A stretch of DNA of 64,000 nucleotides, taken from assembly GCA_030590485.1 (NCBI GenBank), contig JAUUYL010000002.1, positions 1-64,000 of the forward strand, read 5' to 3'. A program made the translations under genes and the position numbers. Positions 4,262 to 15,084 of this stretch are shown one piece after another. Each line of letters opens with the position of its first letter. The stretch's first letter is position 1. The stretch comes from Lentisphaerota bacterium (lineage in GTDB: Bacteria; Verrucomicrobiota; Kiritimatiellia; UBA8416; JAUUYL01). The notes under the pieces are model-generated. The model saw nothing but the letters and a program-made list of their open reading frames with translations, was not told where the DNA came from and ran no database searches.

Positions 4262-5905
4262 CTATCCCAATATTTCCTTTAAGTCTTGCTCAGCCGTTGT
4301 GATCGGCGCAATACTGAACTTCTCAACAAGAACATTCAATACTGCAGGCGTAACAAACGCAGGTAGAGTCGGCCCCAGCTTGATGTTCTTGATTCCAAGA
4401 TGCAACAGAGTCAAAAGTATGCATACCGCTTTCTGCTCATACCATGATATGATCATGGACAACGGCAAGCCATTAACATCCGTTTCAAACGCATCGGCCA
4501 AAGCAACAGCTATCTGTACGGCTGAATACGCATCATTACATTGCCCTAAATCAAGCAAACGCGGAATACCGCCAATATCACCAAAATCGAGCTTGTTGAA
4601 ACGGTATTTACCACAAGCCAACGTCAATATCACACAATCATCAGGTACCGCCTGAGCAAACTCCGTGTAATAGTTACGCCCGCTCTTGGCGCCATCACAA
4701 CCGCCCACGAGAAAGAAGTGCTTGATCGCACCACTCTTTACCGCGTCTATCACCTTGTCCGCGACACCAAGAACCGCATTATGGCCAAAGCCAACAGTAA
4801 TGCTCTTGTCCGGACCATCCTCGGCAAAACCATCAGCCGCCAGCGCCGCCTCTATTACAGGCGCGAAATTACCGTCAGCAATATGGTCAACACCCGGCCA
4901 GGCAACCAAACCACAGGTGAAAATACGGCCTATGTATGTGTCCGCTGGACGCTGAATACAATTGGTGGTCATCAATATCGAACCAGGAAAAGCATCAAAC
5001 TCTTTCTTCTGGTCCTGCCATGCACCACCATAATTACCAACGAGATGACTGTACTTCTTCAACTCAGGATAACCATGGGCTGGCAGCATCTCACCATGAG
5101 TATATATATTAATACCCTTACCCTCTGTCTGCTTCAAAAGCTCTTCCAAATCCTTCAGGTCGTGACCTGAAATCAGAATGGCCTTGCCTTTGAGTGGCTC
5201 TATCCTAACCTGAGTCGGAACCGGGTGTCCATATGTTCCGGTATTAGCCGTATCCAAAAGCCCCATAACCGTCAGATTGACCTCACCACATTTAAGGTTC
5301 ATACCAAGAAGCTCATCAACCGTTGAATTTTCCTTTGTCAGAAAATCTAAAGCTTCATGGAAGAACGCAAACACAGCCTGATCTTCCTGCCCCAGAATCA
5401 ATGCATGGTCAGCATAGGAAGCCGTACCCTTTAATCCATAAGTCAAAAGCTCCTGCAAACCGACAATGTCATCGCCCAATTTCCCTTTACGACCATCAAT
5501 AGAAACTTCTTCACCTTCCTTAATCAGATCCGCCATGCTATCGGCAATCTTCCATTGCGCAGGTCCTGTCAATTCTTCTTCGATATTTCCAGCCTTTTGA
5601 ACGGCGTCCTTATACATAGCTGCAGCTTTTTCTTTCACTGTTGACGCTGCACGCAAGATTGACTCCAGACGCTCAACATCAAAATTTACATTCGTCACAG
5701 TCGTGAATAGAGCTTCAGTTACAAACACATCGACATCTCGGTCATGAACCCCCAACTGCCCTGCCCTGTGAGCGTACATTGAGATTCCTTTGGCCGCATG
5801 GATCAGCAGATCCTGAAGCGCCGCCACATCAGGCTCTTTCCCACATACACCTGTCTTCACACAACCTTCACCCTTAACAGTCTGTTCACATTGATAACAA
5901 AACAT
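4262..5905 (-). CDS. hcp: Hybrid cluster protein / hydroxylamine reductase
   Basis: MFCYQCEQTVKGEGCVKTGVCGK N-terminus; SGHDLKDLEELLKQTEGKGINIYTHGEMLPAHGYP; LACGKYRFN. Confidence 0.97.
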   Translation of the reverse strand: MFCYQCEQTVKGEGCVKTGVCGKEPDVAALQDLLIHAAKGISMYAHRAGQLGVHDRDVDVFVTEALFTTVTNVNFDVERLESILRAASTVKEKAAAMYKDAVQKAGNIEEELTGPAQWKIADSMADLIKEGEEVSIDGRKGKLGDDIVGLQELLTYGLKGTASYADHALILGQEDQAVFAFFHEALDFLTKENSTVDELLGMNLKCGEVNLTVMGLLDTANTGTYGHPVPTQVRIEPLKGKAILISGHDLKDLEELLKQTEGKGINIYTHGEMLPAHGYPELKKYSHLVGNYGGAWQDQKKEFDAFPGSILMTTNCIQRPADTYIGRIFTCGLVAWPGVDHIADGNFAPVIEAALAADGFAEDGPDKSITVGFGHNAVLGVADKVIDAVKSGAIKHFFLVGGCDGAKSGRNYYTEFAQAVPDDCVILTLACGKYRFNKLDFGDIGGIPRLLDLGQCNDAYSAVQIAVALADAFETDVNGLPLSMIISWYEQKAVCILLTLLHLGIKNIKLGPTLPAFVTPAVLNVLVEKFSIAPITTAEQDLKEILG

Positions 5906-6725: not shown

Positions 6726-6950
6726 CTAGACGCTCAGTGCTCCAGCTATTTCCAACAGATTTTCTGAAGTCGATTGTCCGGAAAATCCGCTATCCACTTT
6801 CCCGATCTCCCCCTTGAGCTTTACTACATCATCTTTCGCTGCACGCAACGCAGCCACCTCATCCGGCATAAGATCAACCTGCCCCGCACATTCCGCGAGA
6901 AGAGAACATATCCCCGTCTCTGGAGATAACTCTACGTGAACCTCGCTCAC
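6726..6950 (-). CDS. Hypothetical protein
   Basis: 74-aa ORF directly downstream of the superoxide reductase gene. Confidence 0.45.
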   Translation of the reverse strand: MSEVHVELSPETGICSLLAECAGQVDLMPDEVAALRAAKDDVVKLKGEIGKVDSGFSGQSTSENLLEIAGALSV

Positions 6951-6978: not shown

Positions 6979-7422
6979 TTAAAGCTCGGCCTGCCCCAAC
7001 CAGTTGCCATGCTTGTTGCAATTCTCAATGGCAGATATGGTTCCTGACTGCGCTTTCAAATGCAATCCTGCGGCAGGATGACAAACTTCCGGTGACAACC
7101 AGACTCTGGAAATAAATTTGTTATCGAGGTAGTAGTCTATATATTTGATATAGTGATTCGGCTCCATCACATGCTCAATCTCACCCACCTTGACATGCAC
7201 ATCATAACAACCACCACCCGGAATCAACCCACACTCCCTCACCACTACAACCTGAGGTATATGCTTCTTCTCCGCTTCTGTCAGATCAGCAGCATCCGCC
7301 GGCTTGTTGATGGCATCTGCATCCTCCGCAAAATCACCAGCACCTGCACCACACACCAAACAGGCATCAGGAAGATCATTAAACTCTATATGCCCACATT
7401 TACTACATACGTACAATTTCAT
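6979..7422 (-). CDS. Desulfoferrodoxin/superoxide reductase-like protein with N-terminal rubredoxin-like CxxC...CxxC domain
   Basis: MKLYVCSKCGHIEFNDLPDACLVCG; EPNHYIKYIDYYLDNKFISRVWLSPEVCHPAAGLHL...CNKHGNW. Confidence 0.9.
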   Translation of the reverse strand: MKLYVCSKCGHIEFNDLPDACLVCGAGAGDFAEDADAINKPADAADLTEAEKKHIPQVVVVRECGLIPGGGCYDVHVKVGEIEHVMEPNHYIKYIDYYLDNKFISRVWLSPEVCHPAAGLHLKAQSGTISAIENCNKHGNWLGQAEL

Positions 7423-7468
7423 GCTACACTCCATTTTTAACATTCCTAACTCAAACCTCACATTACAT

Positions 7469-7484
7469 TGCACTATACGTGCCA
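7469..7484 (-). promoter_or_regulatory. Sigma54-like promoter of superoxide reductase gene
   Basis: TGGCACGTATAGTGCA on minus strand vs consensus TGGCAC-N5-TTGCW, 47 bp upstream of ATG. Confidence 0.65.
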
Positions 7485-7571
7485 ATCAGCCCCGTCAGAG
7501 AATAATAAATGTAAGTTACTGCGTATAAGTACGTTAGGAGTAGAGATGCGCATTGCGTCTATATATGCCAG

Positions 7572-7644: not shown

Positions 7645-8004
7645 CTACTTCTTCTGCCAATGATTGACCTTATCCAGAACATCTCTCACATAAGAACATT
7701 CGCACTTCTTACCGCATGGCGCCAGATTCTTATCTTCACCACAATAGCCGGGACAGCCTTCAACATTTTCTTTCGACATATCGTCAAACATCGGACCTTC
7801 ATGCATATCAAGAAACTCACCAGCAGGAATAGCAAGAGTTGAACCGCAACCCTCAACATCATGCGTAAAAAGAAAGAAACCCGCAACCAGATCACCATAA
7901 TTGACCTGATAGCCGTCGAGAATCATGTTGCCATCAGCTAACAATTCATTCCTGTCCTTCCAAATCTTATGACAACTCGTACATTCCTTAAATTCTTTGC
8001 TCAT
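7645..8004 (-). CDS. Hypothetical Cys-containing protein
   Basis: MSKEFKECTSCHKIW...CPGYCGEDKNLAPCGKKCECSYV; no family recognised. Confidence 0.6.
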   Translation of the reverse strand: MSKEFKECTSCHKIWKDRNELLADGNMILDGYQVNYGDLVAGFFLFTHDVEGCGSTLAIPAGEFLDMHEGPMFDDMSKENVEGCPGYCGEDKNLAPCGKKCECSYVRDVLDKVNHWQKK

Positions 8005-8153: not shown

Positions 8154-8169
8154 TGGCATGATTATTGCA
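8154..8169 (+). promoter_or_regulatory. Sigma54-like promoter
   Basis: TGGCATGATTATTGCA, very close to TGGCAC-N5-TTGCW, 32 bp before ATG 8201. Confidence 0.7.
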
Positions 8170-8200
8170 TATTCTATTGAGGATAACAAAGGAGGTCATG

Positions 8201-8395
8201 ATGCCTTTCAGAGAAATGCCAGGAGTTACCGGCTTAGTGTATGTGCCCAACGATGATGGCAACGCAAAGAAGCACAACTGCCCCGATTGCTATAACTGCC
8301 AATGGTGTAGCGATGCCAAATGCGAATTATGCCTGGCGAACAAAAAGAACTCCTGCCGTAGGAAATGCAAAAAGAAGGGGGCGCGTAAGCAGTGA
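8201..8395 (+). CDS. Small Cys-rich basic protein
   Basis: MPFREMPG...CPDCYNCQWCSDAKCELCLANKKNSCRRKCKKK; SD ggagg at 8191. Confidence 0.7.
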   Translation: MPFREMPGVTGLVYVPNDDGNAKKHNCPDCYNCQWCSDAKCELCLANKKNSCRRKCKKKGARKQ

Positions 8396-8412: not shown

Positions 8413-9075
8413 TCAGCAGTACCATACAGATACATCGCGTGTGCCACTTAGCACCATGCCTGCTACTACATCCTCGGGCTGCGTGCGCAACTTCTCAACA
8501 ACAGCACGTTTACTGCTCCCGGCGACAAATACAATCTTTTCGATTCCCAACAAAAAATCTCTGCTGACTGAAATCCTGTCCGGCCCTTCATCACGCTTAA
8601 CCGCTTGAGCCATACACCCCTTCCCCGCCTCAATATCCTCAATACTGAAAAGCGACGCCAGATGACCATCACCCCCCAACCCAAGAACCCCAAGATTAAT
8701 GACACCTTGCCCCATAAACCGCCTCAGATCTCTATCATAAATATCCGCGCATTCCTCAAGCGGCAACTCTGTTCGAGGCCTTACAACACGCGAATCATCA
8801 ATATCCAACGCCTCCACAAGATTCCTGATAAATCCATAATTGCTGTCTGGCGAGCGTATCGGAACATGCCGCTCATCAGACAATAAAACATGCAAGTCCG
8901 GGGAAAGATTCTTGATTCGTCCCGAAAGCGCATCATATATCCCCCTGACTGTGTTTCCTCCTGTCAACATCACCGCATGCGGCCCCGCATTCGTGTTTTC
9001 AAAATACTCGACCAGAAGAGAAACAACAGCTTCAGATAAAGCAGGTTCAGAATCGAACTCAAGGAATGTCAGCAT
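8413..9075 (-). CDS. pgl: 6-phosphogluconolactonase
   Basis: LTGGNTVRGIYDAL, LLSDERHVP, DSNYGFIR, LGLGGDGHLASLF; same gene run as zwf. Confidence 0.9.
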   Translation of the reverse strand: MLTFLEFDSEPALSEAVVSLLVEYFENTNAGPHAVMLTGGNTVRGIYDALSGRIKNLSPDLHVLLSDERHVPIRSPDSNYGFIRNLVEALDIDDSRVVRPRTELPLEECADIYDRDLRRFMGQGVINLGVLGLGGDGHLASLFSIEDIEAGKGCMAQAVKRDEGPDRISVSRDFLLGIEKIVFVAGSSKRAVVEKLRTQPEDVVAGMVLSGTRDVSVWYC

Positions 9076-9827
9076 GCATCATCTCCGAAATCCGTCATCC
9101 CGGCAAAAGATCGAAGTTTGTCAGCATGACGGTGCTCAGCCTTTGAGAGCATGAGGAATGTATTCTTAAGCGAAGGAAACATAGTAAGATACGCCAGCTC
9201 AGCATAAAAATCAGCCGTGGCAAGCTCATGCTCAATCGCATGCTCAAGAACAGGCTTGTCCGACGCAGAAATATTATGATGCAAGTTGTCTCTTTCTTCA
9301 GGGACATAATCGCCTGCAGATGGAAACAGATCATCCGGCTTCTGAGAATATTCCGTCAACTGCTTCAAATGATCACCTTCCTCTTTCGCCAACTGCGCAA
9401 GAAGTGTCTTGAATTCCTTGTCAACCGCCTTACCCGCCATGGTTCTATAGTCATCAAATGCCGCTTTCTCGAACTCCATGGCCATATTCAAGACAAAATG
9501 CCCCACTACCGGCGATGCTTTCACCTGAACTTCTTTCTCAGGAACAAATGCATGCCAAAGAATAATAGCGCCGAAGATGAGAAACATGATGCCGGCAGCA
9601 ATCTTCAATTGCTTCGGATCTATATATTTGGACATCATACTTCCAAGCAACACAGCAAGAAACGTCGACAACACCAACGCCGATGACGCCGCAGCGAACA
9701 CAGTCCATTTAGCCGATTCTGAAGTCGTCGCCCTCGCCATCGCAGCCAGCTGAGTCTTGTCCCCCAACTCTGCAAGAAAGATAAGAACAAATGTGCTTAA
9801 AAATATTTTCCAATTCATATAGTGCAC
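9069..9827 (-). CDS. GDT1/TMEM165 (UPF0016) half-repeat fused to rubrerythrin-like ferritin domain
   Basis: FLAELGDKTQLAAMARAT (UPF0016 signature) followed by ferritin-like helices with EEGDH and AEHRHADKL. Confidence 0.85.
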   Translation of the reverse strand: MHYMNWKIFLSTFVLIFLAELGDKTQLAAMARATTSESAKWTVFAAASSALVLSTFLAVLLGSMMSKYIDPKQLKIAAGIMFLIFGAIILWHAFVPEKEVQVKASPVVGHFVLNMAMEFEKAAFDDYRTMAGKAVDKEFKTLLAQLAKEEGDHLKQLTEYSQKPDDLFPSAGDYVPEERDNLHHNISASDKPVLEHAIEHELATADFYAELAYLTMFPSLKNTFLMLSKAEHRHADKLRSFAGMTDFGDDAC

Positions 9828-9832
9828 CCCTA

Positions 9833-11263
9833 TTACTCAGCTTCAGGCCCAGTGCTACCAAACGCATATGGCAACGGCACAATCTTCTGTTCGTCAATCT
9901 CATGAAGAACCGGCGTAAAAATGTCCCATGCAGCTTCGAGCTCTTCTTTTGTAACAAAAAGACTTCTATCTCCACGAATAACATCCAAAATCAAACTTTC
10001 ATACGCATCTGGTATAATCTCATCAAATGCATGCTTGTAGCGTAAATCCAAATCCTTTGAGGTGAAGTTCATGCCCATACCCGGAGTCTTATTTGTGAAA
10101 CGCAAATATATGGCTTCATCCGGCTGAATTCTTATAACCAGCTCGTTGGCTTCCGGGCATACGCCTGCATCACAGAAGATATTGTTTGCGACATGGCGAA
10201 ACTTAATTCTAATTCTCGTAACATGCTTATCCAGCCCCTTTCCTGCTGTAATACTGAAAGGAACACCAGCCCAACGGTCATTATTTATACTCAACTTTAC
10301 CTTTGCGAACGTAGGCGTAATCGAATCGTCCGGAACCGTATCATCGGACGTATACGCACCCACATCCTTGCTACCGCACTTGCCATCCTTGTACTGACCC
10401 AGAATAATATCATCTACTTGAACAGTCGCAATACTTCTCATCAACTTTACCTTTTTCTCCGCTATTGATGATGAACTGTATCGGTCAGGAGGACACATTG
10501 CCACGAGAGAAAGTACCTGGATAAGATGATTTTGCACAACATCACGAATGATCCCATATTTATCAAAATAACCACCCCGCCCATCAACTCCCGAGTTCTC
10601 TTTCCAGACAACTTCAACGCTCTCGATAAACTCCTTATTCCAAAGCGGCTCAAATATCAGATTAGCAAACCTCAAGACCAGCAGGTTCTGAATCAACTCC
10701 TTACCCAGATAATGATCCATGCGGAAAGTTTGATCTTCTGCAAATATCAGCGCCAATTCCCTGGTCAAAGTGTCCGACGATTGACGATCACGCCCGAACG
10801 GTTTCTCTATCACCACACGCGACCATGGGTTAACACCATCGCAAGCAACAAATCCGGCGTCACCTATGGCGTCAGCAACATCCATAAAGATCGAAGGAGG
10901 AATCGCAAAATAAAATACTCTGTTAACATCTCGAGAGGGTTCTGTATCCTGCATTACCTGATACAAATCCAGAAACGAGTCTGAAGAATCGTAACTGCCG
11001 GAGACATAATGACAACGAGCCACAAAATCCTTCTGGTTATCGGCGCATTCTTTAGCATCAGGCGTGTAGTGGCACGGCAAATCACTTGATATCTTCACGC
11101 GAAACTCATCATGCGTAAACTTCGACCGGGCAAACCCGAATACGTTGAAATCTCCAGGGAGCAGTCCCTGGCAGAAAAGCGAAAAGAGTGCCGGGTATAT
11201 CTTTTTTTGAGCCAAATCGCCCGATGCACCAACAATAATAATACTAACAGCTTCCGAGGCCAC
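9833..11263 (-). CDS. zwf: Glucose-6-phosphate 1-dehydrogenase
   Basis: IVGASGDLAQKKIYPALF, VVIEKPFGRD, FRMDHYLGKE. Confidence 0.97.
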   Translation of the reverse strand: MASEAVSIIIVGASGDLAQKKIYPALFSLFCQGLLPGDFNVFGFARSKFTHDEFRVKISSDLPCHYTPDAKECADNQKDFVARCHYVSGSYDSSDSFLDLYQVMQDTEPSRDVNRVFYFAIPPSIFMDVADAIGDAGFVACDGVNPWSRVVIEKPFGRDRQSSDTLTRELALIFAEDQTFRMDHYLGKELIQNLLVLRFANLIFEPLWNKEFIESVEVVWKENSGVDGRGGYFDKYGIIRDVVQNHLIQVLSLVAMCPPDRYSSSSIAEKKVKLMRSIATVQVDDIILGQYKDGKCGSKDVGAYTSDDTVPDDSITPTFAKVKLSINNDRWAGVPFSITAGKGLDKHVTRIRIKFRHVANNIFCDAGVCPEANELVIRIQPDEAIYLRFTNKTPGMGMNFTSKDLDLRYKHAFDEIIPDAYESLILDVIRGDRSLFVTKEELEAAWDIFTPVLHEIDEQKIVPLPYAFGSTGPEAE

Positions 11264-12838: not shown

Positions 12839-13312
12839 TCAATCTTCAGCAAAGATATGCTCGTCGTACTCGGTCTCAAATTTAAGCTTGTGCTTATCTT
12901 CATCTTCAGCAAGAGCAAGAAACGTACTGCGCACATCTTCATGTTGACTTATCTCAGCAAGGTCACGATACATATCGCCCGCCATCTGTTCTTTCTTCAT
13001 GGCCAACGTGAGAATATCCTGATAGTTCATATCTGAAGACGACTCAACGTCAATAAGATATTTCGAAATATGCAAATCCAACACCTTCTCCTGCGGCATC
13101 ATTATCTTGCCACTTTCCTTTATATCTCGGAGTTTTGCTGCGTGCCCTCGTTCCTGGTCAGCAAACGTGAGTAGCTCCCGACTAATGGCATCATCTGTCA
13201 CCTTCGCTGCCAGTGACTGATAAAACTCCACTGCGCTATTCTCACCCTGAATCGCAAAATCCAGAACGTCCGCCACACTATCACCTTTACCACCAATAAT
13301 TTCTTCTGTCAT
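12839..13312 (-). CDS. Rubrerythrin-like ferritin-family protein
   Basis: AIQGENSAVEFYQSLA...DQERGHAAKL...EDEDKHKLKFETEYDEHIF. Confidence 0.85.
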   Translation of the reverse strand: MTEEIIGGKGDSVADVLDFAIQGENSAVEFYQSLAAKVTDDAISRELLTFADQERGHAAKLRDIKESGKIMMPQEKVLDLHISKYLIDVESSSDMNYQDILTLAMKKEQMAGDMYRDLAEISQHEDVRSTFLALAEDEDKHKLKFETEYDEHIFAED

Positions 13313-13340
13313 GCCAAGCCTCCAGTTCCATCTTCAGAAA

Positions 13341-13499
13341 TCAATTAACTTCAGAAAAACTATCTTTATCTACTCCGCATTCAGGACAGACCCAATCGCC
13401 CGACACATCGGCAAATGCCGTACCGGCGGCAACACCATTATCCGGATCCCCTACCTCTGGATCATAAATATAACCACACACATCACAAATGTACTTCAT
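13341..13499 (-). CDS. Rubredoxin (absent from supplied ORF track)
   Basis: Translated by hand: [52 protein letters not shown]; both CxxCG knuckles present. Confidence 0.97.
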
Positions 13500-13500
13500 T

Positions 13501-13998
13501 TTACAACTCCTCTTTTATCTTCTTTTTCTCCTTAAGAATCCAGTGGATATGCTTTGTCTCTTCCAGCATTAACGCATCTATTTTATCTCTTCCGAAATCA
13601 GCTGACACAAGTTCACGCATTGCAACAAAAAAGCTTATCGTATCCTTTTCCGCCTGGAGCGCAATATCGAGAATATCATCAAGCGTTTCCTCCCCCTTCA
13701 GCAATTCAGTCAAACCTGTACCCGTCAGATCAAAGACATGACTGTCAGCCATGGCTTCCAAATACTGAGCTGCCTCGTTGTCGTGATCAAATGCCGCCAC
13801 CTCTGATTCCCGGGCTGCAAATTCTTTCCGCATTCCTTCGAATAGAGCCAGATGCGCATCTTCCTGCTCAGCTATAAGAAGAAGCAAGTCCTTCCCCTCT
13901 TCACATATCTCAGCGGCTCTTCTATAGAACAATCCACCGTTTCGCTCGATCTGAGCAGCCATCTGCAGAACCTCGTCAGCATGAAATACAGCACTCAT
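13501..13998 (-). CDS. Ferritin-like/rubrerythrin-family protein
   Basis: [19 protein letters not shown]...[13 protein letters not shown]...[17 protein letters not shown] at MSAVFHADE. Confidence 0.8.
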
Positions 13999-14021
13999 AA
14001 TCCCAGCCTCCTTTTGCTCAT

Positions 14022-14405
14022 TTAGCTCTTCCATAAACCGTGTTTATTACAGTAAGCACGTGCACTCACCGAATCAACATTTACACCTTCAAATGTTGCT
14101 TCAGGTTCATCCCCAGGACTTAAATCCACTCTATATACTGCTGATCCCACTAAAAGCTCTATCCACTCAATATAATGATCATCAGCCATAGGATGAGGCA
14201 CCGATCCAACCGTTACCGTCACAGTTGACCCGTCTTTCGCAACAACCGGAACATGTTTCTCTGTCGCAGCATCAGTCGAATTCGCTTCGTACATCTTCAT
14301 TGCCTGATCACAACACGCCAACGTTCCACCCGCCGCATGTAACACTTCAACAACATTCCCACATGCTTCACATTTATATACCTGAAGTTTCTCCGTCATA
14401 TTCAT
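14022..14405 (-). CDS. Desulfoferrodoxin (superoxide reductase)
   Basis: LQVYKCEACGNVVEVLHAAGGTLACCDQAMK; KHVPVV...HPMADDHYIEWIEL...AYCNKHGLWKS. Confidence 0.95.
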   Translation of the reverse strand: MNMTEKLQVYKCEACGNVVEVLHAAGGTLACCDQAMKMYEANSTDAATEKHVPVVAKDGSTVTVTVGSVPHPMADDHYIEWIELLVGSAVYRVDLSPGDEPEATFEGVNVDSVSARAYCNKHGLWKS

Positions 14406-14483
14406 CTCCTTAAATCATTCCACCAAACTGCAGAGCCCATCAGCAAAATCGCCATAACAACCATAGAACCATCAACCATTCAT

Positions 14484-14501
14484 TCGAAAATACATTTTCG
14501 A
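14484..14501. promoter_or_regulatory. Perfect palindrome TCGAAAATACATTTTCGA
   Basis: 8+2+8 inverted repeat between rbr stop and desulfoferrodoxin start; no U-tract on minus strand. Confidence 0.4.
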
Positions 14502-14511
14502 CTGACCTATT

Positions 14512-15084
14512 CTACCAGTTCTCTGCGAGTACTTCAAAATAAGCCTGAGGATGAGCGCAGGCCTTGCAAAGCTCCGGTGCCTCAGGCCCCTCGTGCAGAT
14601 AACCGCAGTTCTTACAACGCCATACCACGACCTCATCCTTCTTGAAAACTTTACCTTCTTCAATGTTCTTGATCAAAGCAAGATAACGCTTCTCATGCTG
14701 CTTCTCCGCCACCGCGATAGACTCAAAAACCTCCGCAATATTATCAAAACCCTCTTCGCGAGCCACTACCGCGAATGACGGATACATATCCGTCCATTCA
14801 TAGTTTTCTCCAGCAGCACTACCCTTCAGGTTGTCTACGGTCTCGCCAATGATACCAAAAGGGAATGCCCCTGTTATCTCCGCCTCACCGCCATCCATCA
14901 ATTTGAAAAGCCTCTTGGCATGCTCTTTTTCCTGATCCGCCGTCTCAAGAAAAATATTTGCCATCTGCACATACCCATCTTTTTTGGCCTTACTCGCGAA
15001 ATATGTATACCTGTTACGAGCCTGTGACTCCCCCGCAAATGCCGCCATCAGATTTGTTGCCGTCTTACTTCCTTTTAACTCCAT
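14512..15084 (-). CDS. rbr: Rubrerythrin
   Basis: [61 protein letters not shown]-terminal rubredoxin-like [10 protein letters not shown]...[11 protein letters not shown]. Confidence 0.97.

Follow-up and report, generated by a model that had tools for sequence, protein, structure and literature searches.

The locus described here raises the question of what is encoded by a gene in which one half of a GDT1/UPF0016 cation transporter is joined to a ferritin-like domain, and whether these two parts work together in the handling of metal. It lies in a 64,000-nucleotide stretch of DNA which was analysed as a whole and is hereafter called the window.

Results

Gene boundaries and the GDT1 half

The fusion gene occupies positions 9069..9818 on the minus strand (open reading frame list, homolog starts) and encodes 249 amino acids, with an ATG start and its stop codon at 9069-9071. 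The preliminary description had extended it from 9069 to 9827, and while this minus-strand open reading frame is present, the start is more likely to be the ATG at 9818 than the GTG at 9827, because the GTG overlaps a ribosome-binding-like sequence read from the DNA (AGGGG, 9827..9831, minus strand) placed 8 bases upstream of the ATG, and the residue equivalent to this ATG is the start of nearly all homologs.

The N-terminal part of the protein (amino acids 7-83; 9570..9800, minus strand) matches PF01169 with an E-value of 3.7e-22 and 78.9 bits against a gathering cut-off of 27, and was also found by the search of its own genome. The E-x-G-D-(K/R)-(S/T) motif of GDT1/UPF0016 proteins is present as the cation-binding motif ELGDKT (amino acids 17-22; 9753..9770, minus strand), and among the 42 fusion sequences over which motif and ligand conservation was scored it is identical in all 41 that cover it, E17, G19, D20, K21, T22 and Q23 (ELGDKTQ) being invariant, which suggests that the transporter is under selection. 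By motif and profile the protein is assigned to the GDT1 family. The LAELGDKTQLA segment had been described as half of the usual GDT1 pair; it is indeed a GDT1 repeat, but a lone repeat is, according to PMC4067407, the ordinary prokaryotic "singleton" form of the family and not a damaged half. The same source states that single halves require a second half, and according to PMC10148156 and PMC8236900 the characterised GDT1 proteins exchange Mn2+/Ca2+ against H+.

A structure model based on 56 sequences (mean pLDDT 81, pTM 0.61), which superseded an 11-sequence model that was poor in the membrane part, consists of three membrane helices and a four-helix bundle. The membrane helices (3-30, broken at 20-22 in the motif, 36-63 and 68-91) match the three transmembrane helices of a GDT1 half, with modest confidence (block pLDDT 56-93).

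The ferritin-like domain

The C-terminal part (amino acids 103-243; 9090..9512, minus strand) is modelled as four helices (103-130, 134-158, 190-211 and 215-243) with pLDDT mostly 80-98, and the linker joining it to the transporter half varies in length and sequence. Its ferritin-like nature, claimed in the preliminary description, is borne out by PF02915 (Rubrerythrin), which matches in two stretches, the best at amino acids 190-239 (8.1e-10, 39.7 bits against a cut-off of 22.8), and by a full set of predicted ligands. The arrangement of Glu, ExxH, Glu and ExxH on four helices is matched by Glu117 in helix 1 (9468..9470; kept in 41/42 fusions), Glu147-x-x-His150 in helix 2 (9369..9380; 39/42 and 41/42), Glu198 in helix 3 (9225..9227; 41/42) and Glu228-x-x-His231 in helix 4 (9126..9137; 42/42 and 40/42), all on the minus strand and all predicted to bind a di-metal centre. 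Both the motif site and the ligand site are therefore under constraint (41/41 for the former, 39-42 of 42 for the six residues of the latter). Departures from the ligand pattern occur in L041, L043 and L079, the last a divergent sequence; in the first two (L041:8001-8735 and L043:8001-8789) the ferritin-like domain is retained although at least two predicted metal ligands are lost, so that metal binding may be dispensable in some members of the group.

Foldseek groups the bundle with bacterioferritin-related, Dps-like, rubrerythrin and COG1633-type chains, the best E-value being 0.002, and since none falls below 0.001 these matches are taken as backing for the general fold only. Sequence profiles gave a clearer picture, the best matches in the PDB being to the Pyrococcus protein 2fzf (5.2e-15) and Thermotoga TM1526 (1vjx; 7.8e-10). 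Profile-profile mapping of the ligands onto rubrerythrin was weak, residue equivalence being limited to the missing ExxE: the fusions do not conserve the additional glutamate that peroxidatic rubrerythrins have in helix 3. Pfam and NCBIfam searches found neither a rubredoxin-like FeS4 domain nor a match to NF045767 in the fusion protein, and no NCBIfam family reached its cut-off. Judged by the lack of both a rubredoxin domain and a conserved ExxE, the protein is not a peroxidatic rubrerythrin.

Distribution of the join

The genome to which the window belongs (2.6 Mb, 91% complete) contains exactly one GDT1 match, the fusion gene itself. In the order, 13/31 genomes have a GDT1 match, one apiece, of which 12 are fusions (including that of G010, broken at a contig end) and the remaining one, in G015, a plain singleton of 91 residues. 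Ten other members of the order share the join over its full length, at 38-51% identity. At class level it was counted from the search table in 37/346 genomes, these being Kiritimatiellae-type MAGs. A single-sequence scan of genome and viral contigs gave no match, and an alignment-based scan of genome contigs found further carriers among Verrucomicrobia/Kiritimatiellae, Planctomycetota, Spirochaetota, Chitinispirillum (Fibrobacterota) and Victivallales (Lentisphaerota), so that the search for UPF0016 and ferritin-like architectures proposed beforehand did recover the same join in the class and in several phyla. The alignment-based scan of viral contigs yielded a plain GDT1 singleton only and no fusion. 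A ferritin-like domain is lacking in most of the GDT1 singletons recovered.

In three Spirochaetota the two parts are adjacent separate genes: a GDT1 singleton at 1377-1658, 1251-1532 and 4382-4663 is followed by a ferritin-like gene at 1665-2180, 1552-2115 and 4668-5120 in L042, L044 and L056, respectively, the second gene passing the Rubrerythrin cut-off in all three. These split loci point to the GDT1 and ferritin-like parts being functional partners, and as no signal peptide was seen by eye in the three stand-alone ferritin-like proteins, these are probably cytosolic. They also show how a lost stop codon could mimic a fusion, and hence bear on the notion that the join is an assembly artefact or a chance read-through of two genes; however, the full-length join recurs in tens of genomes that were assembled independently of one another, the motifs being kept on both sides. 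Its conservation across genomes of the order, the class and other phyla excludes chance, and we give an artefactual origin practically no credence.

In the GDT1 tree, which is rough as it rests on 95 columns only, 40/41 fusions fall into one group (support 96/78), which also takes in all three split loci and five plain singletons, although two of these five are not independent singletons, L013 being the front piece of the cut G010 fusion and the other the partner gene of L079. The L043 fusion stands outside this group on a long branch and its join may be of separate origin. The simplest reading of the tree would be one joining event, with the split states arising earlier or later. As a separate observation, the GDT1 half encoded by a Planctomycetota gene (L047:3569-4102) is extended at its C-terminus by a different segment, which contains cysteines (CKTC...CKDC) and for which no ferritin-like family gave a match.

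Genomic neighbourhood and other metal genes

The fusion gene is closely flanked on the minus strand by a glucose-6-phosphate dehydrogenase gene (9833..11263; PF02781 2.2e-103, PF00479 6.4e-55), which ends 14 bases before its ATG, and by a 6-phosphogluconolactonase-like gene (8413..9075; PF01182 6.3e-31, pgl TIGR01198 9.9e-27, the latter below cut-off), which overlaps its end by 7 bases. Upstream on the same strand are found DsbD and, at 12839..15084 (Pfam, NCBIfam), two stand-alone ferritin-like genes (12839-13312 and 13501-14034), a desulfoferrodoxin gene and a rubrerythrin with a rubredoxin domain (14512-15084; Pfam), and the run also holds a prismane/Hcp-type protein. A further desulfoferrodoxin (superoxide-reductase-type) domain is encoded at 6979-7485, with a rubredoxin-like N-terminus just under the Pfam cut-off, and three small proteins near the stress genes (7645-8004, 8165-8395 and 6726-6950), two of them cysteine-rich, have no significant Pfam or NCBIfam match.

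These surroundings fit an oxidative or metal stress context, and the gene run of this kind noted in the preliminary description is present in the window, but its members are not shared by the other fusion loci, where inspection of predicted open reading frames by eye found no conserved stress operon. The neighbourhood therefore lends weak support to any function. In two other loci (L030 and L031) a separate ferritin-like gene lies less than 3 kb from the fusion.

Searches of the own genome gave no VIT1, MntP or TerC match and one CDF-type cation efflux gene. Two genomes of the same order carry ferritin-like plus VIT1 (MbfA-like) fusion open reading frames of about 316 amino acids (L139:603-1550 and L140:563-1513), and ferritin-VIT1 and GDT1-ferritin fusions thus coexist in this order. 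Mutual exclusion of the fusion and VIT1 was considered and rejected: there is no overlap in the order, but by hand tally VIT1 is present in 7/37 fusion genomes of the class versus 68/309 others.

Partner, oligomeric state and membrane topology

The fusion is the sole GDT1 in 12/12 fusion genomes of the order, and outside it in 9/10 fusion genomes and 3/3 split-gene genomes checked, the exception being L079; for the own genome, the absence of a second GDT1 applies to an assembly that is 91% complete. As the fusion is nearly always the lone GDT1 of its genome, it probably works as a homo-oligomer.

Orientation was assessed by the charge test of PMC4067407, in which R and K are counted per side, odd minus even loops. 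The mean difference was 0.00 for the fusions (sd 1.19, n=41) and 0.59 for GDT1 singletons, while the control, cyanobacterial GDT1 pairs of opposite bias, gave +3.50 (first gene) and -0.79 (second gene). By the positive-inside rule the fusions would thus have no preferred orientation and look like dual-topology proteins, in which case half of the ferritin-like domains could sit outside the cytosol. This is a puzzle, since if both chains of an antiparallel pair bear a soluble domain, such domains would come to lie on either side of the membrane.

In one Spirochaetota locus (L079:7986-9000) a divergent GDT1-ferritin-like fusion gene overlaps another GDT1 gene, a plain one whose product is predicted to be oriented the opposite way. 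The ferritin-bearing chain has charges of 1 versus 3 (predicted C-in), and the plain one 6 versus 1. This pair is a candidate natural heterodimer, which is predicted to escape the two-sided arrangement through its two oppositely oriented genes.

Discussion

The explanation that we favour, at about even odds (a probability of roughly 0.5), is that the fusion is a homo-oligomeric GDT1 exporter of Mn2+ and/or Fe2+ against H+, whose ferritin-like domain binds and may sense metal, and either delivers it to the transporter or gates the latter. Export of Fe or Mn and metal sensing by the domain, as suggested in the preliminary description, are thus part of this proposal. Each chain would supply one three-helix half, two chains together forming the antiparallel arrangement of halves which in other GDT1 proteins is contained in a single chain, and every chain would carry at its C-terminus the four-helix domain with the predicted four-Glu, two-His site. 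When cellular Mn2+ and/or Fe2+ rises, it would be expelled by the transporter, while the domain, facing the cytosol, would bind Fe2+ (or Mn2+) and feed it to the transporter or gate the transporter, as the MbfA domain does for a VIT1-type exporter. Observed are the conserved architecture with its ligand positions, the lack of a second GDT1 and the split genes, and what we infer is the identity of the metal, the direction of transport, the cytosolic placement and the coupling of the two parts. In its favour we count that both Pfam cut-offs are passed, the constraint on both sites, the lone GDT1, the split genes, the L079 charges, the Mn2+/Ca2+ exchange of characterised GDT1 proteins, the properties of the MbfA domain and the lack of VIT1, MntP or TerC; against it, the charge difference of 0.00, the unconserved neighbourhoods, the CDF gene, the incomplete assembly of the own genome and the ligand loss in L041 and L043, and, as far as Fe2+ is concerned, that GDT1 proteins are known for Mn2+/Ca2+ and not for Fe2+.

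Several other explanations were weighed. The ferritin-like domain might, tethered to the membrane, scavenge peroxide or reduce O2 as a di-iron enzyme, with GDT1 mainly anchoring it or balancing local Mn2+/Fe2+, both parts serving the same stress without mechanical coupling. The rubrerythrin-like fold and the run in the window with rubrerythrin, desulfoferrodoxin, the prismane/Hcp-type protein, glucose-6-phosphate dehydrogenase and DsbD agree with this, yet a rubredoxin domain to supply electrons, such as the rubrerythrin at 14512-15084 has, is absent, the peroxidatic glutamate and the neighbourhood are not conserved, and the invariant GDT1 motif implies selection on the transporter; we consider it unlikely. 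That the di-metal domain handles Mn rather than Fe, the transport being of Ca2+ or Mn2+ only and the domain loading or buffering Mn in a manganese homeostasis device, accords with the substrates of characterised GDT1 proteins (PMC8236900 and PMC10148156) and with the ability of rubrerythrin-type folds to hold Mn, di-Mn structures being among the Foldseek matches. Four Glu and two His are, however, the usual di-iron set, even if sequence cannot discriminate between metals, and this alternative seems to us very doubtful.

Two further explanations concern assembly. The domain could be mostly an oligomerisation or topology module which joins GDT1 halves by dimerising, its metal binding being secondary; the need of single halves for a second one (PMC4067407), the lack of a separate GDT1 partner, the dimerisation of the MbfA domain (PMC4902296) and the retention of the domain in L041 and L043 despite ligand loss would all suit such a role. 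Against this, all six ligands are kept in most members, most GDT1 singletons found here manage without such a domain, and an antiparallel pair would put its domains on opposite sides of the membrane, precluding dimerisation within one pair, which makes this explanation quite unlikely. Similarly doubtful is a dual-topology antiparallel homodimer in which, of the two di-metal domains, one would be cytosolic and one outside, metal being sensed or handled on both sides; the balanced charges would allow it.

Should the favoured exporter reading be true, a ferritin-like di-metal domain would have become joined to a second, unrelated family of divalent-metal exporters, as happened with VIT1 in MbfA, and the GDT1 family, to which TMEM165 belongs in humans, would be connected with iron, or with metal sensing built into the transporter. 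A transporter half apparently free to insert either way and nevertheless bearing a soluble domain would also be a clean system in which to study the assembly of single-half GDT1 proteins. The join itself appears unstudied: no description of a UPF0016/GDT1 plus ferritin/rubrerythrin architecture was found in the open-access literature, to which this search extended, and the two main papers on the family are silent on it, so that the architecture is not, in this literature, an already characterised one.

Among known systems, the fusion has in common with GDT1/UPF0016 singletons (PF01169; PMC4067407) one three-helix half, the E-x-G-D-K-T motif and balanced loop charges, but these are proteins of about 100 residues without a soluble domain, to which it adds a ferritin-like domain of 140 residues. 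TMEM165, yeast Gdt1 and the cyanobacterial pairs have the same transporter unit and motif, but consist of two halves in fixed opposite orientation and bear no ferritin-like domain, whereas COG1633-type rubrerythrin-like proteins (Pyrococcus 2fzf, Thermotoga 1vjx) show the same helix and ligand pattern in soluble, stand-alone form. The closeness to MbfA (ferritin-like plus VIT1 iron exporter, NF045676) put forward in the preliminary description stands, in that a ferritin-like di-metal domain is borne by a divalent-metal exporter, with GDT1 in place of VIT1. In MbfA this domain is cytoplasmic and required for iron export (PMC7762939). The order of the domains is reversed, the ferritin-like one being C-terminal in the fusion, and the MbfA model scores 18.8 bits on the fusion protein against a cut-off of 450; the best reading, by analogy, is of a protein that would work like MbfA but is not one.
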